From a virus, in IMG/VR virus record IMGVR_UViG_3300020162_001386, positions 1 through 30,412 of that record: DNA of 30,412 nt; one strand, written 5' to 3'. This document shows positions 1-20,921 of this stretch, piece after piece. The position numbers and the translations under genes are program-made. The notes beneath the pieces are model-generated. The model ran no database searches and was not told the DNA's origin. It saw nothing but the letters and a program-made list of their open reading frames with translations. How positions within the stretch are numbered: position 1 is the stretch's first letter; each line of letters begins with the position of its first letter.

Positions 1-63
1 GAGTTTTTGGGGCGCTTCGATGAAGGCGCGGACATTCAAGACATTCAGGACGCAATCACATGA
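1..63 (+). CDS. 3' end of an upstream gene (partial)
   Basis: The first 20 codons are open in frame 1 and end at a TGA that overlaps the next start (ATGA). The visible tail reads EFLGRFDEGADIQDIQDAIT, an acidic, probably helical end with no recognisable family. If the window is circular, it is the in-frame C-terminus of the gene starting at 30122: base 30412 closes a codon and base 1 opens the next one with no stop between. The function is unknown; the overlap shows it belongs to the same operon as the downstream nuclease. Confidence 0.6.
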   Translation, partial: EFLGRFDEGADIQDIQDAIT

Positions 64-464
64 CCAAGGGCGCATCCGCCAAGGGAAAGAGCAGCCGAGC
101 CAAGGGTGCGCGGGGCGAGCGCGAGCTTGTGCGCTGGTTCCGAGATGAACTCGGAATCATGGCAACCCGCAACCTACAGCAGTACGCAGAGTCTCAGCTT
201 GGGGACATTGTCATTGGCCCATTCTGCATTGAAGCGAAGAATCACAAGCGGCTTAGTGTTCGCCAATGGTGGAAGCAAGCGGCGGAACAAGCGAAGAAAG
301 CCGATGCAATCCCCGTTCTCGCGTATCGGGTTGCGGGCGTCAAGCTTGGCTGGCGCTTTGTCCTGCCGCACACCAGCGCGCAAGGGGAGTGGAGTCACGA
401 CTTCGAGTTCACCGTAGACGTAGGCCCCGCGTGTTTCGCCATGATCGTTAGGGAGGCCCTTTGA
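60..464 (+). CDS. PD-(D/E)XK nuclease, Holliday-junction-resolvase-like
   Basis: This 134-residue protein has a basic N-terminus followed by GARGERELVRWFRDELG, with a candidate first acidic residue near position 22. GDIVIG contains Asp49, and FCIEAKNH supplies Glu58-x-Lys60. This E...GD...ExK order is the PD-(D/E)XK nuclease core used by archaeal-type resolvases and many phage Holliday-junction nucleases. A helix with Gln residues (WKQAAEQA, 71-78) follows, as in that family. It probably cleaves branched DNA before packaging or during recombination, which fits an early operon that also feeds the ERF annealing pathway. The ATG overlaps the previous stop. The fold assignment is fairly secure; the substrate is inferred. 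Confidence 0.72.
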   Translation: MTKGASAKGKSSRAKGARGERELVRWFRDELGIMATRNLQQYAESQLGDIVIGPFCIEAKNHKRLSVRQWWKQAAEQAKKADAIPVLAYRVAGVKLGWRFVLPHTSAQGEWSHDFEFTVDVGPACFAMIVREAL

Positions 465-4933: not shown

Positions 4934-6210
4934 CGACGCTACGGGTGCAAATCCCGAGGCCCATGCTGCCCTTCGCCACCGAGCGAAAGCGGCACAAGGT
5001 CGCAAGGGGCGGGCGAGGTTCCGGCAAGTCGTGGAGCATCGCCCAGCTACTTATCGTAAGGGCTTACGCCGAGCCGATCCGGTGGCTGTGCTGCCGCGAG
5101 GTCCAGAAGTCGATCAAGGAATCCTCAAAGCGGCTGCTAGAGGATCAGGTTGCGGCCCTTGGGCTGTCGTCGCACTTCGAGGTACTGCGCGACTCCATCC
5201 GTGGGGCTAACGGCTCGGAATTCGCCTTCGCTGGCCTGCGCGACCATACCGCCGACAGTCTGAAGTCCTACGAGGGCTTCGACGGGGCATGGATTGCCGA
5301 GGCGCATAGCGTCTCCGAGCGCTCGGCCACGGTGCTGAGTCCGACGATCCGCAAGCCGGGGTCGGAACTCTGGTGGGATTACAACCCCGACCAGGAGGAT
5401 GATTTCGTTCACCAGTTGGCCGAGCGTCCCGACGACGACACACTCGTCGTGACGATGAACTGGCGTGACAATCCGTGGTTTCCGACCGAGCTAGAGAAAG
5501 AGCGCCGGAAGCTGCTTGGGCTGAATCAGGACCTTTATCGCCACGTTTGGGAGGGCGAGTGCCGCAGTAACGCGGGCCTCCTGTTTAAGCGCGATTGGTT
5601 CAAGTTCTACGACCGGAAGCCCGAGCGCCTGTCCATCTACATCGCCAGCGACTACGCGGTAACGCCTGACGGCGGCGACTACACGGAACACGGCGTATGG
5701 GGCCTGTCGGATACCGGCGACCTGTACGCGCTGGATTGGTGGCACGGCCAGACCGACCCCGCCACGTGGATCGATGCGTGGATTGAGCTTTGCAAGAAGT
5801 GGAGCCCGCTCAACGCATTTGAGGAAGCGGGCGTGATCCTTCGCGCGGTGGATGGGTCGATCACCAAGCGGATGAGGGAAACGCAGACGTTCACACGTCG
5901 AACGGCTCTAGCGTCTGCCGGTGCCAAAGCGGAGCGCGCCTTGGGCTTCGCGGCTCGCGCGTCTGCCGGCGCGGTGTACCTGCCAAGCGGCCCTCTATGG
6001 GCCACGCGCCTGCTGAACCAGCTTTGCGCCTTCACTGGCGAAGACGGCAGGCCGGATGACGCGGTGGACGTTTGTAGCCTTATCGGGCGCGGGCTTGACC
6101 ACATGCACAACGCCAGCGGAAGCGGCGACGAGCCGAAGCGGCGCAGCCGGCTGGACGACTATGGCCCCGGCGAAGGCGACGGACAAGAATCCAATTGGAA
6201 GGTGGCATGA
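4930..6210 (+). CDS. Terminase large subunit (packaging ATPase/nuclease)
   Basis: This 426-residue protein is the motor that packages DNA into proheads. The Walker A motif is GGRGSGKS (27-34, Lys33). A Walker B-like strand is GFDGAWIAEA (116-125), with Glu124 as the likely catalytic residue. The coupling-type motif ELWWDYNPD is at 146-154. The RNase H-like nuclease half starts at IYIASDYAV (Asp241), with further acidic residues in GRPDDAVDV near the C-terminus. Length and motif order fit the PBSX/Terminase_3-type group. The start overlaps the preceding small ORF, and the stop overlaps the portal ATG. Confidence 0.93.
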   Translation: MTTLRVQIPRPMLPFATERKRHKVARGGRGSGKSWSIAQLLIVRAYAEPIRWLCCREVQKSIKESSKRLLEDQVAALGLSSHFEVLRDSIRGANGSEFAFAGLRDHTADSLKSYEGFDGAWIAEAHSVSERSATVLSPTIRKPGSELWWDYNPDQEDDFVHQLAERPDDDTLVVTMNWRDNPWFPTELEKERRKLLGLNQDLYRHVWEGECRSNAGLLFKRDWFKFYDRKPERLSIYIASDYAVTPDGGDYTEHGVWGLSDTGDLYALDWWHGQTDPATWIDAWIELCKKWSPLNAFEEAGVILRAVDGSITKRMRETQTFTRRTALASAGAKAERALGFAARASAGAVYLPSGPLWATRLLNQLCAFTGEDGRPDDAVDVCSLIGRGLDHMHNASGSGDEPKRRSRLDDYGPGEGDGQESNWKVA

Positions 6211-8144
6211 AAGACAAAGACACGCTGGAGCGCTGCGTACAGCAGTTCCGCGACGCCATCGACGAGACGCAGGAAGAGCGCGACACCGCCGAGCAGTGCC
6301 GCGACTACTACGACGGCAAGCAGTGGACGGATGACGAGATTGAGGCGCTGCAAAAGCGCGGCCAGCCCGTCATCGTGTCGAACCGCATCGCGCCGAAGGT
6401 CAATAGCCTGATCGGCTTTGAAAAGCGTGGCCGCACCGATCCCAAGTGCTACCCGCGCACGCCGAAGCATGACGCCGAGGCCGATGCCGCGACGGACGCC
6501 CTGAGGTTCGTGTGCGAGCAGAACCGCTTTACGTCGATCAAGTCGGACGTGGCAGAAAACCTCATCATCGAGGGTGCGGGTGCCTGCTCGGTGACGGTTG
6601 TCCCGGATGGCAAGGGCGAGTTTGACATCAAGATCAACCTTGTCCCGTGGGATCGCTTCTACCGCGATCCGCACAGTCGCCAGCGTGATTTCAGTGACGC
6701 GAAATACATGGGCGTCGTCATCTGGATGGACGAGGCCGAGCTTTACGAGCGGTTCCCCGACGCCGAGGAACACATAAAGGCGTCGTATGGCGGCAACTCC
6801 GACGATGTAGGCGACACGTACGAGGATCGCCCGCGCTTCATGTGGGCCGACTCTGCCCGCAAGCGCGTTCGCGTGATGCAGCATTATTATCTCGAGAGCG
6901 GCGTTTGGCACACTGCCATCTTCTGTCGTGGCGGCTATCTGCGCGACCCGCAGCCTTCGCCCTATCTTGACGACAAGGGCCGGCCCGAGTGCCCGCTGAT
7001 TGCCGTTTCCGCCTACGTTGACCGCGAGAACCGCCGCTATGGCGCGGTGAAAGCCATGCTGTCGGCGCAGGACGAGATCAACAAGCGGCGCAGTAAGGCC
7101 CTGCACCGCCTTACCATGCGCCAAGTCGTTGCCGAGGATGGCGCGGTCGAGAACAAGGCGCAGGCGAAGGCCGAGCTTGCCAAGCCCGACGGGTTCGTCG
7201 TGGTGCGCCCTAACGCTCGCTTTGAGCTGCTCGATGGCTCGATGCCGCTCCAAGGCGAATTTGAGTTGCTGCGCGAGGCCAAGGCCGAGATTGACGCCAG
7301 CGGCGTGAATCCGTCGCTTGAAGGCAACATGATGGCCCCGAGTGGCCGCGCGCAGGAAGTGTCGCAGGCTGCCGCGCTGAGTGAGCAGGCGATCATCTTC
7401 GACGCCCTGCGCGACTGGTCACTGCGCGTCTATCGCAGCGTGTGGAACCGCATCCGCCAGCATTGGGCGGGGCCGAAGTGGGTGCGCATCACGGACGACG
7501 AGCGCAACCTGCGATGGGTTGGGCTGAACACGCCGATCACGCGCGGCGAGATGCTGGTGAAGGAAGCCGAGGCGCGGGGGATGGCCTTGACGCCCGAGCA
7601 GCTTGCGCAGATTCAGGCCGACCCGATGATGGCCGAGCCGGTGGGCGTGCAGAATGAGGTGGCCGCGCTTGACGTTGACATCATTGTCGATGAAGGCCCC
7701 GATAGTGTCACGATCCAGAGTGAGCAGTTTGAGGCGCTGGTTCAGTTGAAGCAGGCCGACCCGTCCGCCATCCCGATGGAAATGGTGATCGAGGCGTCCA
7801 GCCTGCGGAACAAAGACCGCATCATCGAGCATCTGAAGTCGGGCGGCATCCCGCCGCAGGTGCAGGCGCAGATGGCCGAGATGCAGGCCGCGCTAGAGGC
7901 TGCACAGGCCGCTGCCACGCAGGCGCAGCAGCAGGCGCAGCAGATGGCCGCACAGGCTCGGCTAGAGGCGCAGAAGCTGGCGATTGACCAGCAGCAGGTG
8001 CAGGTCGATGCCGCGAAGGCCGAGGCCGACCGGATCAAGGCGCAAGCCGAATTGATCAAGGCACAGGCGCAGATGCTTGAAGTTCAACAGCGGTACGCGG
8101 CCCCCGTGATCGTCCCCGCCGAGCCGGTGGCGACATTCGGCTAG
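6207..8144 (+). CDS. Portal protein, P22 family
   Basis: A 645-residue protein forming the dodecameric DNA gate of the prohead. The N-terminal half reads as the P22 gp1-type portal family: CRDYYDGKQWTDDEIEAL, then VSNRIAPKVNSLIGFEKRGR, and further on NLIIEGAGACSV and PWDRFYRDPHSR. The C-terminal region from about residue 550 is a long Gln- and Ala-rich coiled coil, comparable in position to the P22 barrel helices. ATG 6207 overlaps the terminase stop and is preceded by GGAAGGTGG. An in-frame TTG at 6195 is less likely. Confidence 0.92.
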   Translation: MKDKDTLERCVQQFRDAIDETQEERDTAEQCRDYYDGKQWTDDEIEALQKRGQPVIVSNRIAPKVNSLIGFEKRGRTDPKCYPRTPKHDAEADAATDALRFVCEQNRFTSIKSDVAENLIIEGAGACSVTVVPDGKGEFDIKINLVPWDRFYRDPHSRQRDFSDAKYMGVVIWMDEAELYERFPDAEEHIKASYGGNSDDVGDTYEDRPRFMWADSARKRVRVMQHYYLESGVWHTAIFCRGGYLRDPQPSPYLDDKGRPECPLIAVSAYVDRENRRYGAVKAMLSAQDEINKRRSKALHRLTMRQVVAEDGAVENKAQAKAELAKPDGFVVVRPNARFELLDGSMPLQGEFELLREAKAEIDASGVNPSLEGNMMAPSGRAQEVSQAAALSEQAIIFDALRDWSLRVYRSVWNRIRQHWAGPKWVRITDDERNLRWVGLNTPITRGEMLVKEAEARGMALTPEQLAQIQADPMMAEPVGVQNEVAALDVDIIVDEGPDSVTIQSEQFEALVQLKQADPSAIPMEMVIEASSLRNKDRIIEHLKSGGIPPQVQAQMAEMQAALEAAQAAATQAQQQAQQMAAQARLEAQKLAIDQQQVQVDAAKAEADRIKAQAELIKAQAQMLEVQQRYAAPVIVPAEPVATFG

Positions 8145-10181: not shown

Positions 10182-10535
10182 ATGGCGACTTATAACCGGC
10201 AGCGATTGGTGCGCGACTGCCTCATTGAAATCGGCATCCTCGACCCGAACGAGTCGCCGTCTGCCGAAGACTACGAGGCTACGGATTCCATCGTACAGCA
10301 GCGCATGGAAGGGCTGTACGATGAAGGCTTGATCCCGTTCGACCTCGACGGCGTCATCCCGGCGCGCTTCATGCGCCCGCTGGTGAAGGTCATCTCGGCG
10401 GAACTTGTGGCTGCATACGGCGTGCAGAGTCGCGCAGAATTGATCCTTGCCCGCGCGGCTGAGGGTATGCGCGACCTGTGGGCGCTGCGCGATCAAGCGC
10501 AAATCGACACGCCGACTAGGGCGATGTACTTCTAA
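10182..10535 (+). CDS. Head-completion/tail adaptor, P22 gp4-like
   Basis: A 117-residue, largely helical protein. It opens with ATYNRQRLVRDCLIEIGILD and carries ARFMRPLVKVISAELVAAYG, a pattern seen in head-tail connector proteins of P22-like and related podophages. In P22, gp4 binds the portal ring and is the platform for gp10. Its position directly after the capsid and before the gp10-type genes supports the same role. The ribosome site AAGGAGG is five bases from the ATG. The stop shares a base with the next start (TAATG). Confidence 0.72.
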   Translation: MATYNRQRLVRDCLIEIGILDPNESPSAEDYEATDSIVQQRMEGLYDEGLIPFDLDGVIPARFMRPLVKVISAELVAAYGVQSRAELILARAAEGMRDLWALRDQAQIDTPTRAMYF

Positions 10536-11539
10536 TGAAGTACCGCGAAGTTAACTTGCTAGGCGGCTTCTACAAGGACGCCTCGCAGCCGTGGTCGAGT
10601 CAGGACACGGTGAATTGGCTGCCCGCTGGTGACGACTCAGGCCAAGCCCGTAGCGAAATGATGTTGCGCGGCGCTCCCGGCCTGCGCGAAGTCACGTTCG
10701 GCACGGATAGCGGCGGGGGTGGTGGCGGCGGTGGGGGTGGTGGCATCGTCGTTTCCCCCGTGGGCATCAGCGGCACGCCGACCAATGGCGAGCGCGGCGT
10801 GGCGTACACGTTCACGTTCACCGCTAGCGGCGGCACGGGGCCGTACTTGTGGAGTCTCGCGGCTGAGGCTCCGCCAGGTCTCACGATCAATCCCACGACC
10901 GGCGAGCTTTCCGGCACGCCGACGCTCGCGGGCTCCTATTTCTTCGTCGTCGTCGCCACGGATTCGACGGGCCTCCCTGCGTCTCGCGCCGTGAGCCTGC
11001 GCGTCACCGCCCCGCTTGGGCCGGAGGTCGCGCTGGATAACCCCGACTTCGCCACGGCAACGGGCTGGACGACGGTCAACCAGACGGCAACGCCCGGTTT
11101 CAGCTTCCAAAGCGGGGCGGGGCGCACCGGCCCCGGCTTCCTGCGGTGGGTCACTTCCGCCGCGCTGCCGGGGAACTACTTTGGCGACACGATAACGAAT
11201 GACGCTGTTGTCGAGGCTGACGGCAACGAGTTGAACGCGATTGGGTTCGTCCGCTGCACCGCTGCCGGTCCTTCGCCTAACGGTGAATACGCCGACATCT
11301 TGCTAGGCGTTCAAATCTTCAACGACGCTGCCTGCACCGTTCCGGCTAATTCCAACTGGCAGGCCTTCGAGTCGAACGTCAGCGTGCGATTCAACGGTGT
11401 GCGCGATTGGGTCGCGCTGTTCCTGAACATCACGCCGCAGGAAGGCAAGTATTACCGCCTCGCCTTCCAGTGCCGCGCTGGTCTTTCGGCAACCATCGAG
11501 TTTGATGATTGCTCATGGAACGCGAGGAACCGCGCGTGA
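10535..11539 (+). CDS. gp10-type N-terminal module fused to Ig-like and C-terminal beta domains
   Basis: This 334-residue protein begins with a module (1-52: REVNLLGGFYK, QPWSSQDTVNWLPA, MLRGAPGL) like the N-terminus of P22-type packaged-DNA stabilisation proteins. A run of 11 glycines (60-70) then leads into a putative Ig domain (about 80-158, with APPGLTINPTTGELSGTPT typical of He_PIG repeats). A C-terminal region (about 165-334: NPDFATATGWTTV, YYRLAFQCRA, IEFDDCSW) resembles carbohydrate-binding jelly-rolls. It lacks the gp10 body. It may dock on the tail through the module and present binding domains; that is inference. The next gene starts within its stop. Confidence 0.68.
   Translation: MKYREVNLLGGFYKDASQPWSSQDTVNWLPAGDDSGQARSEMMLRGAPGLREVTFGTDSGGGGGGGGGGGIVVSPVGISGTPTNGERGVAYTFTFTASGGTGPYLWSLAAEAPPGLTINPTTGELSGTPTLAGSYFFVVVATDSTGLPASRAVSLRVTAPLGPEVALDNPDFATATGWTTVNQTATPGFSFQSGAGRTGPGFLRWVTSAALPGNYFGDTITNDAVVEADGNELNAIGFVRCTAAGPSPNGEYADILLGVQIFNDAACTVPANSNWQAFESNVSVRFNGVRDWVALFLNITPQEGKYYRLAFQCRAGLSATIEFDDCSWNARNRA
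10710..10743 (+). repeat. G-rich tract coding for poly-glycine linker
   Basis: A run of GGN codons with two stretches of five consecutive G encodes the 11-glycine linker of the first gp10-module protein. G-runs of this kind can slip during replication, altering frame or linker length. Confidence 0.7.
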
Positions 11540-12672
11540 AGGAAATCAACCTTATCGGCGGGTTCTACAAGTCAAAAACGCTGCCTTGGTCGGCGCAGGA
11601 CGTTGTGAACTGGGTGCCGGTCAAGTCCGTTGCCGGTGGCGCGCGGAGCCCGTACAAGCTGCGCGGACTGCCGGGGCTCAAGGCGCTAAACGAAAGCATC
11701 TTGCCGCCGCCGCCGCCGCCGCGATGGCTGCTGAAGATCGGCGCGCTTCCTGCTGTGCCGGCTCAGAGCCTTGGAATTTTCAGCAGCCCCGATGGCGATG
11801 ATTGGAGCGCGACTGTCCCCGTGGCTGGTGGCGGCTCTTTGGAGCATGTGAATCTTGGGTTTGACGGCACGGCGCTGATTACTTCCACAGGCCAAACGGG
11901 GCGTCGTTACACCGGTGACGCGGGCGTAACGCTCTCGACGCTTTACACAGGTGGCCCGATAATTTCCGCCAGTGGCGGTCGCGCCGCAAAGCTAGGAGCA
12001 TCTTGGTTTCGCGCCAGTGGGCCTTTTATTCGCCTTTCCGTGTCGTCAGACAACGGCGTGACTTTCACCGAGGCGATCAGCGACAACGACTCCAGACTGC
12101 AAGACATTGTTACTGCAGACGACGGACGGCTTGTCGGCGTGACAGAGGGAACTAGCACGTTCATTAGCGATGACGGCGGCACGAATTGGTCGGCGCGGCC
12201 CTCGCTCAGTGCTGGCGGGTTTCCTACTGGCATCATCACTGTCGAGCGCATCCGAAAGACCGGGACGCTGGTTGCGACCTACATTGCCGGAGTTCCCGCA
12301 GACCCGCCGAACCAAGGCCGAATCTCTATCAGCCGCGACAATGGCGAGACGTGGCAAGAGCGCGATTACCGCTTCGGCATCCGGCAGGACGAGGGCGGAA
12401 CGGTTGTGGGCTTGACCGAGTGGGGCAATGGCTTCATTGCGGCTGGAACGCAGTCGGGAAAGATCGCCATTAGCCGAAACGACGGCGAGACGTTCACCAC
12501 ATCTCCATTTTCCTTCCCAACGCTGCTTCGCGGACTTTCTGGCGATAACCAGAAGCTCATTGCCTGCGGCGATGGCGGCGAACTCTGGAAAACCACCGAC
12601 GGCGTTACGTGGACAAAGGTCGCCGTCCCGTATCCAGACGCCGACATTCTCTGGGTGAGCCAAGTTCCATGA
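11536..12672 (+). CDS. gp10-type N-terminal module fused to an Asp-box beta-propeller
   Basis: A 378-residue protein from a GTG that overlaps the preceding stop and has GAGGAA at 11523-11528. Residues 1-51 repeat the N-terminal module of the upstream protein (EINLIGGFYK, LPWSAQDVVNWVPV, LRGLPGL), roughly half identical. Six prolines (57-62) form a linker. The rest carries six Asp-box (BNR-type) motifs: SPDGDDW (84-90), SDNGVTF (171), SDDGGTNW (211), SRDNGETW (266), SRNDGETF (313) and TTDGVTW (353). These mark a beta-propeller like sialidase or Ycf48-type proteins. Catalytic sialidase residues were not identified. It may be a receptor-binding or tail-decorating protein. Its stop overlaps the next ATG. 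Confidence 0.7.
   Translation: MKEINLIGGFYKSKTLPWSAQDVVNWVPVKSVAGGARSPYKLRGLPGLKALNESILPPPPPPRWLLKIGALPAVPAQSLGIFSSPDGDDWSATVPVAGGGSLEHVNLGFDGTALITSTGQTGRRYTGDAGVTLSTLYTGGPIISASGGRAAKLGASWFRASGPFIRLSVSSDNGVTFTEAISDNDSRLQDIVTADDGRLVGVTEGTSTFISDDGGTNWSARPSLSAGGFPTGIITVERIRKTGTLVATYIAGVPADPPNQGRISISRDNGETWQERDYRFGIRQDEGGTVVGLTEWGNGFIAAGTQSGKIAISRNDGETFTTSPFSFPTLLRGLSGDNQKLIACGDGGELWKTTDGVTWTKVAVPYPDADILWVSQVP
11704..11721 (+). repeat. (CCG)6 triplet repeat coding for poly-proline linker
   Basis: Six CCG units encode prolines between the gp10-type module and the Asp-box propeller. Unit gain or loss would change linker length without shifting the frame. Confidence 0.75.
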
Positions 12673-13907
12673 CGATTTCAGACCCTATTCGCGGCCTGCG
12701 CAATGTCGAAGGCCTGCTATTCATTGTCGCTGGCGACAAGCTCTATCAGCTCGGAACCAACGGTGTCGCCATTGATCGCGGGACGATCCCCGGCGTTGAT
12801 CGCGTGTCGATGGATTACAACCAAGTTGCCGGCGGCAACCAGCTTGCCATCGACAACGGTTCGTCACGCTACATCTTCAACACCGCGACGCAGGCGCTTT
12901 CGCAGGTCACTGACGATCAGTTCCCCGGTTCGTTTGCCGCTGAGTTCCTAGACGGATACTTGCTTGGCGTGGAGCCATTCGGGCGCTATTGGTTTTGGAG
13001 CGACCTAGCGGACGGCCTGAGCTACAGCAGCTTTGACCGCGCGCAGGCGGAAGCGCGGCCCGATCCCATCATTGCGCTGAAGGTTTTCAACCGAGAGGCG
13101 TGGGTATTCGGTCGCGACACGACAGAAGTATTCGTCAACACTGGCGCGCTTACTGGAACGTTCCAGCGGGCCTCCGGCACCGTCCTGAACGTCGGCTGTG
13201 CTGGCCGCTTTGCCGTGGCCCGTAGCAATGCGGGCATCTTTTGGCTTGGCGGCGATGGCCGGTTCTATGCGGCGAACGGGTACAACCCGCAGCCCATCTC
13301 GGCCGCCCCCGTCGAGCAGGCTATCCGTGGATTGGATTGGACGCAGTGTTACGCTATCAGCTGGGAGGACGAGGGGCACAGCGTCGTTTACTTCGGGTTC
13401 CCGAACGGGCAGACCTTCGGATACGACGTTAGCACCGGCATGTGGCACCGCAGGCAGTCGCAAGGGCTGCAAGGCTGGCGCATCGGCCACCTTGAGCGCT
13501 GGAACGGCAAGTGGATTGCCGGCGACATCTACAGCGGCGGCATCTACGAACTCGCATGGGACGCCTACGACGAGGCGGGCGGCCCGCTGGTATGCGAGCG
13601 CACCTCGGGCGTGTTCTCGGACTCGCAGCACCGGCTGGTTTTCTCCGGCCTTGAGCTTGTCATGGACACCGGCAGTGGCAACGGCAACGCCGCGCAGAAG
13701 GTCATCTTGCAGTATTCCGACGACGGCGGGCGCAACTGGTCGAATTGGCGTGAGGGAAGCATGGGCGCAGTGGGCGAGCACGCCAAGCGCATCCGCTTTC
13801 ACCGTCTCGGCGCGTCCCGAAATCGCGTGTTCCGCGTTCGCGTGAGCGACCCGCGCAGGCGTGACCTGATTTCCGCCTCTCTCTCTGTCGAATCAACCGG
13901 CCAGTAA
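12669..13907 (+). CDS. gp10-like packaged-DNA stabilisation protein lacking its N-terminal module
   Basis: The 412-residue product matches the body of P22 gp10-type proteins, which plug the portal and form the tail hub. It has PIRGLRNVEGLLFIVAGDKL near the start, then RVSMDYNQVAGGNQLAID, SFDRAQAEARPDPIIALKVF, and a C-terminal QYSDDGGRNWSNWREG. In single-ORF homologues the module ending LRG-PGL normally precedes the RGL...LYQL segment. Here that module is absent and occurs instead on the two upstream genes. The ATG overlaps the previous stop. The body is therefore probably functional but depends on N-terminal parts made separately, or has lost them. Confidence 0.78.
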   Translation: MTISDPIRGLRNVEGLLFIVAGDKLYQLGTNGVAIDRGTIPGVDRVSMDYNQVAGGNQLAIDNGSSRYIFNTATQALSQVTDDQFPGSFAAEFLDGYLLGVEPFGRYWFWSDLADGLSYSSFDRAQAEARPDPIIALKVFNREAWVFGRDTTEVFVNTGALTGTFQRASGTVLNVGCAGRFAVARSNAGIFWLGGDGRFYAANGYNPQPISAAPVEQAIRGLDWTQCYAISWEDEGHSVVYFGFPNGQTFGYDVSTGMWHRRQSQGLQGWRIGHLERWNGKWIAGDIYSGGIYELAWDAYDEAGGPLVCERTSGVFSDSQHRLVFSGLELVMDTGSGNGNAAQKVILQYSDDGGRNWSNWREGSMGAVGEHAKRIRFHRLGASRNRVFRVRVSDPRRRDLISASLSVESTGQ

Positions 13908-18604: not shown

Positions 18605-18624
18605 CCCGCCCATGCGGGGCTTTT
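18605..18624 (+). terminator. Possible terminator before the fibre genes
   Basis: CCCGC (18605-18609 region) pairs with GCGGG around a CCAT loop, and TTTT follows at 18621-18624. It could end ejection-gene transcription on the plus strand. On the minus strand the same stem lies in the leader of the membrane gene. The stem is short, so confidence is limited. Confidence 0.35.
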
Positions 18625-18633
18625 GCATTGCGG

Positions 18634-18660
18634 AGTATACATGACATTCCAGTTCTACAA
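18634..18660 (-). promoter_or_regulatory. Promoter for the opposite-strand membrane gene
   Basis: On the minus strand TATACT (18639-18634) is a near-consensus -10 box, one base from TATAAT. A weak -35 (TTGTAG, 18660-18655) lies 15 bases upstream. Transcription would begin near 18627 and leave a leader of about 35 bases ending in GGAGGGTTTGTG. Having its own promoter is what an independently expressed moron would need. Confidence 0.5.
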
Positions 18661-19432
18661 CCCCTCCCCGGTGCTTTGGGAGTTGACCGCGCTCGCCCCG
18701 GCCAATGGCGGCTCTATCCAGTTCTACGCCATCAACACGACGACGCCCAAGGCAACGTTTGCCGACTTCGCGCAGACCGTCACCAATCCCAACCCCGTGC
18801 CGCTGGACAGCGCGGGCAGGCCGGAGGTGCCGTTATGGCTGGACGGCGATTACAGCGTAACCGTGCGGAACGCTGACGGCGAGACCATCGACACGTTCGA
18901 CCTACGCGACCCTGCGGCGGGCGGAACGACCATCCCGCCGCTTGTCTCGGGCCGGTTTCTCACAAACAACGGCACCTCGCTGCAATGGTCGGTGATTCGC
19001 CAGCTTCCCGACCCCTCGGGGCAGGCCGGTAAGGTCCTTTCCACGGACGGCGCAAACTACCTGTTCACGAACCTCCCCGCCGCGCCCACGCTCCCCGTCG
19101 AGGTCTTCACGACCGGCGTCGAGATTGGCGACGGCACGCGGAAGCTTCGCATCATCACCGGCACGGACACCGCGCCCTCCTCGGGCACGAACCGAACATC
19201 GAAAACCATCACGTTCGGCGTCACCTTCCTTACGCCGCCGGTTTGGGTTGATGCGACAGTGAATCAGGTGCCGATTAGTTCCGTGGCCCTTGTCGCCAAG
19301 GCTGTCACCAGCGTGACAACGACGACGGCCCTTGCCACCTTCGACACCGCCGACCGCCACTTCGTTGACGGCTCTTACATCACCTCCGGCTTTCCGTTCA
19401 CGTGGATCGCGATTGGCGAGGTTGCCGCGTGA
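18641..19432 (+). CDS. Tail fibre/tailspike-type protein with head-binding-like N-terminus
   Basis: A 263-residue protein. The N-terminal part (NGGSIQFYAINTTTPKATFA, then NPNPVPLDSAGRPEVPLWLD and DYSVTVRNADGETI) has the pattern of the P22-tailspike head-binding domain that attaches fibres to podophage tails. The C-terminal part (KTITFGVTFLTPPVWVDATV) resembles the receptor-binding tip fold found at the end of many fibres. The usual beta-helix is missing, so this is a short fibre or an adaptor. ATG 18641 follows GGAG. Confidence 0.7.
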   Translation: MTFQFYNPSPVLWELTALAPANGGSIQFYAINTTTPKATFADFAQTVTNPNPVPLDSAGRPEVPLWLDGDYSVTVRNADGETIDTFDLRDPAAGGTTIPPLVSGRFLTNNGTSLQWSVIRQLPDPSGQAGKVLSTDGANYLFTNLPAAPTLPVEVFTTGVEIGDGTRKLRIITGTDTAPSSGTNRTSKTITFGVTFLTPPVWVDATVNQVPISSVALVAKAVTSVTTTTALATFDTADRHFVDGSYITSGFPFTWIAIGEVAA

Positions 19433-19911
19433 CGGTCAACAGCATCCCCAACGCCGGCCAGCCTATCGCCGGAGGCATGAGGGTTGATCCGACTTGGTAC
19501 AAGTGGCTGCGCGAACTCGACCGCGAGGCGCGCGACACGGGCGCGGACTTGTCCGCAGAGATTCAGGCGATTGCGCGGAAGCTTGGATCGCCTGACGGCA
19601 CCATCGACGGAATCCCCGAATCGTCGCAGAGCTTGACCGCGCTCCCACCCCTTGCGATTAGCGGGAATCAAGTCACGCTGTCAACGCTTACCGCAGACAC
19701 GGCGGGCGAGTTGTTCGGCATCACGCGGGACGCCTACGGGCGCATTTCCGCGCTGCGTCCTGTCGTCGCTGGCGCGGGAATCGTTATCGACGGCACGACG
19801 AACACCGATCAAATCGAAATCAGCGCGAGCGCATCGGGACAAGTGAATCGCATTACCTCCGCTGGCGACTTCCGGCGCACGACTCAGAATGACTTGCGGG
19901 AGATTGCCTGA
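19429..19911 (+). CDS. Fibre-associated protein, 160 residues
   Basis: GTG 19429 overlaps the previous stop. The N-terminus (IPNAGQPIAGGMRVDPTWYK) precedes a helical stretch (WLRELDREARDTGADLSAEI), which may trimerise. A beta-prone C-terminal part with repeated TLTADTAGELFGI and AGAGIVIDGTTNTDQIEI follows, a style common in phage fibre shafts. No enzyme motif is visible. It lies between two fibre proteins and probably joins the same receptor-binding assembly. Confidence 0.62.
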   Translation: MTVNSIPNAGQPIAGGMRVDPTWYKWLRELDREARDTGADLSAEIQAIARKLGSPDGTIDGIPESSQSLTALPPLAISGNQVTLSTLTADTAGELFGITRDAYGRISALRPVVAGAGIVIDGTTNTDQIEISASASGQVNRITSAGDFRRTTQNDLREIA

Positions 19912-20921
19912 TGGGCGTTGTTCGCATCCAAGACCTTGCCAGCGCGCCCAGCGCATTGACCGGCACTGAGTCCGTCGAAATAGAACAGGGCGGCGTTAGC
20001 TATAAGACCACGGCGCAGGCAATCGCAGACCTTGCCTCTGGCGGCGTGACTGACGGTGATAAGGGCGACATCACCGTATCGGGAACGGGCGCAGCGTGGA
20101 CGATTGATAACGACGCGGTGACGAATGCCAAGCTAGCGAACATGGAAACGGCCACGTTCAAGGGCCGCACCACGGCAGGAACAGGCGACCCGGAAGACCT
20201 GACGGCGACGCAGGCAACGGAGCTTCTAAACACGTTCACGACCTCGCTAAAGGGCCTTGCTCCCGCCTCTGGCGGCGGCACTAGCAACTTCCTTCGCGCT
20301 GACGGGACTTGGGCTGTGCCGAGTGGTGGCGGCGGCGGGTCGCTTGACTACAACACGTTTCTGTTTCCTTCGAACCCATCGGGGATCATCTTCACCGACA
20401 CCACGGCACGCCGCGCGCTGGTTGAAATCCCCCTTTCGCAGACCATGCGGTTTATCCAACCCCGCAATTCCGGCAAGTGGTACATGGAATGGCTAATCAA
20501 TGCGATGGGCACGAGTGGCGGCCCAACGTTCGGCGCTGGGCAGTCTGCTATGGTCCTCGGAACGAATCAGGTCGGAGACAACACCGGCACGGGGTCAACC
20601 GCGCGAACCGCAACTTGGGGCCTCATCGCAAGCAGCGGCAACAAGTATCACGGCGGCGCAGATAGCTACGGCTCTATTTCCACCACGAGCGACGTAATCA
20701 TGATGGCCGTAGACATCGGCGCGGGCCGCATTTGGTGGGGCAAAAATGGCACTTGGTTTGCTTCAGGCAATCCCGCCGCAGGGACGGGCGCTGCATACAC
20801 GAACTTGGCCAGCTACATCGTGCCGGCAATGAGCTTGAGGACTGGCGCAGAGGCAACGGCGCGTGTCACCTCCGGCGAATTCTCGCATTCCATTCCTTCC
20901 GGTTTCTCAGCCTGGGCCTAA
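19911..20921 (+). CDS. Tail fibre with C-terminal SPRY-like domain
   Basis: This 336-residue protein has an N-terminal shaft rich in fibre repeat phrases (GGVTDGDKGDITVSGTGAAW, DNDAVTNAKLANM, LRADGTWAVPSG) and a glycine linker near 145. A C-terminal domain from about 150 follows, with SGKWYMEWLINAMG, RIWWGKNGTWFASGNPAAG and PSGFSAW. That order matches the SPRY/B30.2 fold used by some phage fibres as the receptor-binding tip. It is the likeliest host-recognition protein here. The start shares a base with the previous stop (TGATG). Confidence 0.75.
   Translation: MGVVRIQDLASAPSALTGTESVEIEQGGVSYKTTAQAIADLASGGVTDGDKGDITVSGTGAAWTIDNDAVTNAKLANMETATFKGRTTAGTGDPEDLTATQATELLNTFTTSLKGLAPASGGGTSNFLRADGTWAVPSGGGGGSLDYNTFLFPSNPSGIIFTDTTARRALVEIPLSQTMRFIQPRNSGKWYMEWLINAMGTSGGPTFGAGQSAMVLGTNQVGDNTGTGSTARTATWGLIASSGNKYHGGADSYGSISTTSDVIMMAVDIGAGRIWWGKNGTWFASGNPAAGTGAAYTNLASYIVPAMSLRTGAEATARVTSGEFSHSIPSGFSAWA

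Follow-up and report, generated by a model that had tools for sequence, protein, structure and literature searches.

Hub proteins of the P22 gp10 type form a hexameric ring that keeps the packaged DNA in; this ring is seated on the gp4-like adaptor ring and is not itself the portal plug. The ring of T7 gp12 likewise sits on the adaptor (PMC6702177; statements on this and the other reports cited refer to the accessible passages of those reports). The solved gp10 and nozzle relatives match as single chains. Here we describe a hub of this type in a virus stretch termed the window, the whole 30,412 nucleotides of IMG/VR virus record IMGVR_UViG_3300020162_001386 that were analysed. The hub of the window is spread over three consecutive open reading frames (ORFs A, B and C), in which an N-terminal module opens both ORF A and ORF B, each continuing into a cargo region, and ORF C encodes the gp10 body without this module. 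We consider it fairly probable that such a hub would be assembled from separate chains by strand donation, the module docking exchangeable cargo.

The family was assigned with PHROG-578, a profile of 486 positions that is labelled 'head closure Hc3' and is of the P22 gp10 type. Profile searches matched residues 1-54 of ORF A to positions 1-53 (E 1.4e-7), residues 2-51 of ORF B to positions 4-52 (E 9.4e-7) and residues 6-409 of ORF C to positions 59-471 (E 2.2e-108), and Pfam PF11134 (Phage_stabilise) matched ORF C at 9.2e-4 only, under its curated cut-off. An original prediction from the sequence had taken the module for the gp10 N-terminus and the third ORF for the gp10 body lacking it, which these matches bear out. 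The same module of about 50 residues indeed opens two consecutive proteins, with 51.9% identity over 52 amino acids (tblastn), and the stop-start overlaps said to couple the ORFs hold as well: the start of ORF A overlaps the stop of the gene at 10182-10535, ORFs A and B join at GTGA, and ORFs B and C at ATGA. Judged from these profile matches, the hub of the window belongs by descent to the P22 gp10-type family (PHROG-578/Hc3) and departs from it in its chain plan of three ORFs. The N-terminal part of the family is present, yet on two ORFs apart from the body. The description of a missing N-terminus was right in that the gp10 sequence equals module plus body, and is corrected in that two proteins offer that single N-terminus. 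In P22, module and body do form one protein as predicted, but the predicted portal plugging gives way to the seat on the adaptor. No further N, P or C hub part was found on either strand of the window, the best other matches having E 0.0029 or worse, and the one at 0.0029 falls within the Asp-box region of ORF B (N stands for the module, P for the propeller part, C for the C-terminal part, and a slash for a split between ORFs).

To place the cuts in the fold, we used an AlphaFold2 model of a single-chain relative, L041, which aligns with ORF C at 48% identity. The model, built from a 37-row alignment, has a predicted local distance difference test score (pLDDT) of 89.9 and a predicted template modelling score (pTM) of 0.89. 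It resembles P22 gp10 (8eap_D) with a Z score of 39.0 and a root-mean-square deviation of 2.2 over 436 aligned positions, followed by Pan3 (Z 38.8), Sf6 (35.7) and Pam1 (34.4), and more weakly larger nozzle proteins, among them those of phicrAss001 (27.0) and SU10 (25.8), and has the platform and propeller of this fold. Both cuts fall between strands of the model. The N/P cut maps to residues 56-60, after strand 49-55 and before strand 61-67, and ORF C starts six residues ahead of the position matching residue 61. The P/C cut, at residues 388-399, separates strand 377-387 from strand 400-406. Unrelated propellers align with L041 only from about residue 46 (virginiamycin B lyase, 46..353; RACK1, 48..352), and strand 49-55 is thus taken to belong to the propeller although it is carried on the module. 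The first 45 residues of T7 gp12 hold three platform strands, and its ring is closed by the propeller strand that comes first in sequence (PMC6702177); by analogy with this strand order, the module would comprise platform strands 4-7, 29-32 and 42-45 together with the propeller closing strand 49-55. In its N-P part, L041 is 90% and 87% identical to L032 and L035, both of which are split, indicating that chain plans change among close relatives.

Relatives were recovered by searching body and module separately. With whole ORF A or ORF B as the query, no relatives were found among viral contigs; among phage records ORF A gave partial matches only, none covering 80% and most of the matches listed spanning the immunoglobulin (Ig) part, and ORF B gave none. 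A two-row alignment of ORF A matched only the contig of L017. The closest relatives of the body are seven viral loci, 79-84% identical and reduced to four by dereplication; a module-cargo ORF is followed by the body in all six that reach upstream, the seventh, L008, being cut off. The split between module and body occurs in six further dereplicated loci, four with one module-cargo gene, one with a tandem (L017) and one without cargo (L065), and in N/P-split rows the module gene lies directly ahead of the body wherever the contig reached far enough. In the closest relatives the modules remain 64-71% identical to those of the window while the cargo differs: it combines Ig with an Asp-box type in L002 and with an unassigned region in L004, and has no Pfam match in L007 and L014. 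The tandem plan of the window is shared by L017, which has a module, Ig and a further region, then a module, Ig and Asp-box type, then the body. Tandem modules are also present in L018, where the first stands in a cargo-free ORF of 63 residues and the contig ends before any body.

The layouts of two of these loci are as follows. In L018, the first module stands alone at 5304-5495, the second module with a repeat-rich cargo occupies 5492-7238, and the next ORF, of 322 residues, has no Pfam match. In L065 (6000-6308), the cargo-free N/P cut has an ATGA overlap at the same site as in the window; its module lies outside the window clade, and the contig ends soon after.

Comparison with L002 showed where the window has changed. 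Terminase (98% identical), portal (98%), coat (99%) and gp4-like protein (93%) are nearly the same in both, the hub less so (modules 64% and 68%, P 85%, C 78%), and of the cargos only one third of cargo 1 aligns (40%, the Ig part), cargo 2 having no match. The cargo is the most changed stretch between window and L002, and ejection-type genes past the hub vary too. The predicted role of the module, a docking tag that also supplies the N-terminus in trans, fits the module match, the cargo turnover and the propeller strand at the module end; the docking itself we infer.

We propose that the module would supply in trans the platform strands and the first propeller strand, a closing or 'velcro' strand, that the body lacks. 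As the chain is cut right after this closing strand, a domain could be fused to the cut end inside the fold, and the module-cargo protein would join the hub ring by donating a strand, displaying its cargo there. In the window, the protein with Ig-like and beta-rich cargo and the one with Asp-box cargo would either use the sites of a single body protein in common or apportion them. The stop-start overlaps would couple translation and help module and body to meet during folding, and common modules would let relatives exchange cargos.

The history of the modules was followed on a body tree of 70 rows and on a module tree of 74 modules, the latter built from 51 columns and with many forks unresolved. 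The N/P split forms one clade on the body tree (100/100), in which L017 branches first, the window second and the one-module phages afterwards; an ancestral tandem followed by loss suits this branching order, and two gains are also possible. On the module tree, the window, L017 and L018 have their first modules in one group (94/86) and their second modules in another (87/85), and the single modules of L002, L004, L007 and L014 are placed apart from both tandem-module groups. The duplication probably predates the window, L017 and L018, both classes having been kept, and the cargo-free first module of L018 hints at a separate structural task for module 1. A scan for position-2 modules added no tandem locus, its new contigs being L146 (P/C split) and L151 (single chain), and in 398 genomes it returned only two matches already known. 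Two module-cargo proteins sharing sites may do so at random or in 3+3 alternation, or one of them may sit elsewhere. A more detailed scenario, which we hold only tentatively and at somewhat less than even chances, is that the body was kept without its closing strand, and that two old, diverged module-cargo classes close the ring in trans, each class bearing its own surface-binding domain, in mixed or alternating (3+3) rings of two specificities, while recombination between common modules swaps their cargos.

A different reading places the module-cargo proteins at another tail site, such as the adaptor ring, or does so for one class only, so that the body works without an N-module and the module is a tail tag that does not complete the hub fold. 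The two module classes have been apart since before the window, L017 and L018 diverged, as would be expected of different sites, and the first module of L018 has no cargo. The platform of T7 gp12, with its N-terminal strands, faces the adaptor (PMC6702177), making adaptor contact likely anyway. However, the constant place of the module gene directly before the body speaks against binding elsewhere, as does a body left without a strand that propellers have, and we regard this reading as unlikely.

A second split, between P and C, was found among the relatives. We compared 76 dereplicated rows including the window, gathered from module and body scans, four cultured phages and our own N, P and C profiles; dereplication used the first 400 bases of the match and some near-copies may remain, and the sample is biased, the scans having begun from the window clade. 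N and P lie on one ORF and C on another in 50 of the 76 rows (including L054), usually with variable cargo on the upstream ORF. Single N-P-C ORFs account for 10, two cultured rows are single ORFs with the module below threshold, four rows are N/P-C and two N/N/P-C (window and L017), and the remaining eight are incomplete (four N-P and one each of N, N/P, N/N and P-C). Splitting is thus no peculiarity of this gene, the second split site being the commoner one among the relatives fetched. The single-ORF homologues, four cultured phages and other single-chain rows, carry module and body in one frame, which argues against the suspicion that the module is unrelated to gp10. On the body tree, the P/C split requires at least seven changes, at least six of them forced by well-supported branches, with gain and loss indistinguishable; this count merges sub-labels and truncated rows, and rises to 13 if they are kept apart. 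In the 45 N-P/C rows with a close junction (L054 excluded), the upstream ORF has 143-454 extra residues (median 396), and in four N-P/C rows a gap of 525-948 bases leaves space for another ORF between the pieces.

Bacterial genomes carry the same plans. The NP profile matched 17 of 395 genomes of the Pseudoxanthomonas dokdonensis family at E 1e-30 or better, nine of them split as N-P/C, seven with a single ORF (two with the module below threshold) and one with a single ORF containing a 531-residue insert. A P/C split is carried by L094, a prophage region of Pseudoxanthomonas dokdonensis DSM 21858. Four of 299 genomes of the same order matched at 1e-20, three of the nine split ones and one single ORF. 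Among 398 phylum genomes, ten matched, two of the nine split ones and eight in which no split was detected; one of these eight has two copies and no C match. The phage records that matched ORF C (52) or the NP part of L035 (45) are all below 60% identity.

Further hub plans were seen. Two single-ORF hubs have inserts between P and C, of 531 residues in L132 (genome G914) and of 155 residues in L050 (7168-7632), and this place thus takes cargo in one chain too; in G914 two equally scoring hub copies lie about 37 kb from each other. The second ORF of L019 (7632-9416) has about 527 residues before C, with a GTA_TIM barrel (E 1.1e-106, residues 219-495), an enzyme-like cargo placed N-terminal to the C piece. 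Acetobacter phage phiAX1, suggested by its annotation as an enzyme-cargo split, was rejected, its gp10 being one ORF; at L096:3185-5005 in this phage, the single-ORF gp10 is directly preceded, with a slight overlap, by a gene annotated as cycloisomaltooligosaccharide glucanotransferase.

The pieces might still be joined into one chain by a frameshift or stop read-through, with the cargo in the middle. Single chains with large P/C inserts such as those of L050 and L132 exist, and at three of 46 close P/C junctions the C part lies in the same frame beyond one stop. Against this, the 46 junctions have six spacings (-4 in 20, -1 in 10, -8 in 7, +1 in 4, +2 in 2 and +3 in 3), and the C frame relative to the upstream ORF takes all three values (32, 11 and 3), so that no single frameshift device could fuse the pieces, and one programmed frameshift joining P and C is ruled out. 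Moreover, at every junction but that of L019 (45 of 46) a start codon lies 9-27 bases ahead of the C match. We consider fusion highly improbable. The ratio of nonsynonymous to synonymous change (pN/pS) ranged from 0.04 to 0.56 in 20 comparisons (8 modules and 12 C parts), the three highest values coming from the window-L017 module pairs (0.48 and 0.54) and L025-L074 (0.56), and both modules and detached C parts are under purifying selection. Sequencing or assembly error, or a decaying gene, probably explains the break at L054:6792-6819, where the propeller is broken at profile position 213/214 into two overlapping frames and no start codon was found at the break, but for the family it is largely refuted and scarcely credible, given this selection, the start codons at junctions and the recurrence of the same plans in separate metagenome assemblies and nine bacterial genomes, on contigs of up to 3.4 Mb: the split is real.

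The cargos were compared with Pfam. Among 62 cargo pieces, each of which may match several domains, 33 matched He_PIG, 7 BNR, 6 Sortilin-Vps10, others WD40-type propellers, one Laminin_G_3 and one GTA_TIM. Such domains are frequent in binding or glycan-cutting proteins, and the cargos are probably receptor- or glycan-binding domains. The cargo of L002, at the N/P site, aligns with that of L055, at the P/C site, over 412 columns (28.9%, E 2.7e-13), so that one cargo type occurs at both sites. Clustering joins 37 of the 62 pieces, but a single cargo family is not claimed, the best pairs listed mostly having only the Ig part in common. In the window, the Ig-like domain predicted for the first protein was recovered by He_PIG with 47.7 bits against a curated 24 (E 2.2e-12); the label 'jelly-roll-like' for the region after it was given by eye, and the AlphaFold2 model there is poor (pLDDT 47.8). 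The six Asp boxes of the propeller predicted for ORF B are visible by eye, whereas its Pfam scores miss the curated cut-offs (BNR, 24.9 against 27 bits, 1.3e-5; Sortilin-Vps10, 28.6 against 33 bits, 8e-7).

Several points weigh against a hub assembled by strand donation with docked, receptor-binding cargo. Strand donation is read from the model of a single chain, and the module alone was predicted without structure (pLDDT below 50 for residues 1-69), although a two-row alignment tells little. For SU10, closure of the propeller is worded the opposite way, the outermost strand being the C-terminal one (PMC9509320). The branches leading to module 1 are long (0.48-0.56), which could signal a changed role. 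The cargo is not the sole variable place, the next gene past the hub being 57% identical between window and L002 and the following one 43% over 22%. In addition, three tail-fibre-like ORFs follow the ejection-type genes at 18623-20921, and the hub cargos may accordingly be secondary binders; one of these ORFs matches PHROG-10080, and so do 5 of the 62 cargo pieces of the hubs.

The features of the window are collected in the table below. The gene upstream of ORF A probably encodes the gp4-like adaptor, its product matching a protein of L011 annotated 'P22 tail accessory factor' at E 2e-4 over 38 residues.

Table. Features of the hub locus and tail-fibre candidates in the window
Feature	Position	Strand	Basis
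Small upstream gene, gp4-like adaptor candidate	10182..10535	+	Position and weak one-pair BLASTP match
ORF A, first module-cargo protein, 334 amino acids, ATG	10535..11539	+	L017 homologue along most of length, 41% in alignment
N-module 1, residues 1-53, gp10 N-terminus	10535..10693	+	PHROG-578 positions 1-53, E 1.4e-7
11-glycine run joining module 1 to cargo	10712..10744	+	Sequence
Ig-like domain of ORF A, residues 111-158 (best Pfam stretch)	10865..11008	+	He_PIG, E 2.2e-12
Rest of ORF A cargo, mostly beta by prediction, fold unsettled	11018..11536	+	AlphaFold2 pLDDT 47.8, two-row alignment
ORF B, second module-cargo protein, 378 amino acids, GTG start	11536..12672	+	Sequence
N-module 2	11536..11694	+	PHROG-578 positions 4-52, E 9.4e-7
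6-proline run joining module 2 to cargo	11704..11721	+	Sequence
Asp-box (BNR) cargo of ORF B	11722..12669	+	Sortilin-Vps10 and BNR under cut-off; six Asp boxes by eye
ORF C, gp10 body without N-module, 412 amino acids, ATG	12669..13907	+	PHROG-578 positions 59-471, E 2.2e-108
Part P of ORF C, propeller and start of C-terminal platform	12669..13673	+	P profile 1-335; strand map of L041 model
Part C of ORF C, C-terminal strands; separate ORF in many relatives, fused here	13701..13898	+	C profile 1-66, E 4e-36
Tail-fibre candidate	18623-19432		PHROG-26190 match (2.2e-66, function unknown)
Tail-fibre candidate	19911-20921		SPRY domain (9.1e-6, just under cut-off) and PHROG-10080 (2.7e-8)

Among the matches listed in the open literature, outside of which most subscription papers lie, no report of a split hub or nozzle was found. 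A clade that builds its hub from pieces, with cargo at the cut ends, would show how breaks within the fold are tolerated by a machine under pressure, and would provide a natural strand-donation display system. It may let phages swap host-recognition parts without rebuilding the plug, and makes that question testable for short-tailed phages. In many prophages, moreover, gp10 has its C part on a small ORF of its own, easy to overlook.

P22 gp10, Sf6 gp8 and the hub proteins of Pam1 and Pan3 are of the same family over nearly their whole length, with fold Z scores of 34.4-39.0 to the L041 model. They are single chains, whereas in the window the N-terminus lies on other, cargo-bearing proteins and in two versions. 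The T7 gp12, SU10 gp17 and phicrAss001 gp44 nozzles resemble the window in having a hub ring with extra domains, among them the Ig-like domains inserted in the nozzles of SU10 (PMC9509320) and phicrAss001 (PMC10172136). In the accessible descriptions, these three nozzles keep the inserted domains within a single chain, in blades 2 and 3 of the propeller or between them, whereas the family of the window has cargo at the propeller start or in the C-terminal part, with the chain cut after the cargo. Sulfitobacter phage GT1 has two tubeA (adaptor) genes and maybe two-protein rings (PMC10386132); it duplicates whole adaptor genes and not a split gp10, and the passages of that report describe no cargo at a cut end. 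The anchors of tail fibres and tailspikes are fibre domains that attach to the tail, whereas the anchor of the window is a piece of the hub's own fold. Such fibres and tailspikes are alike in joining a constant N-terminal anchor to an exchangeable distal part (PMC12692247).

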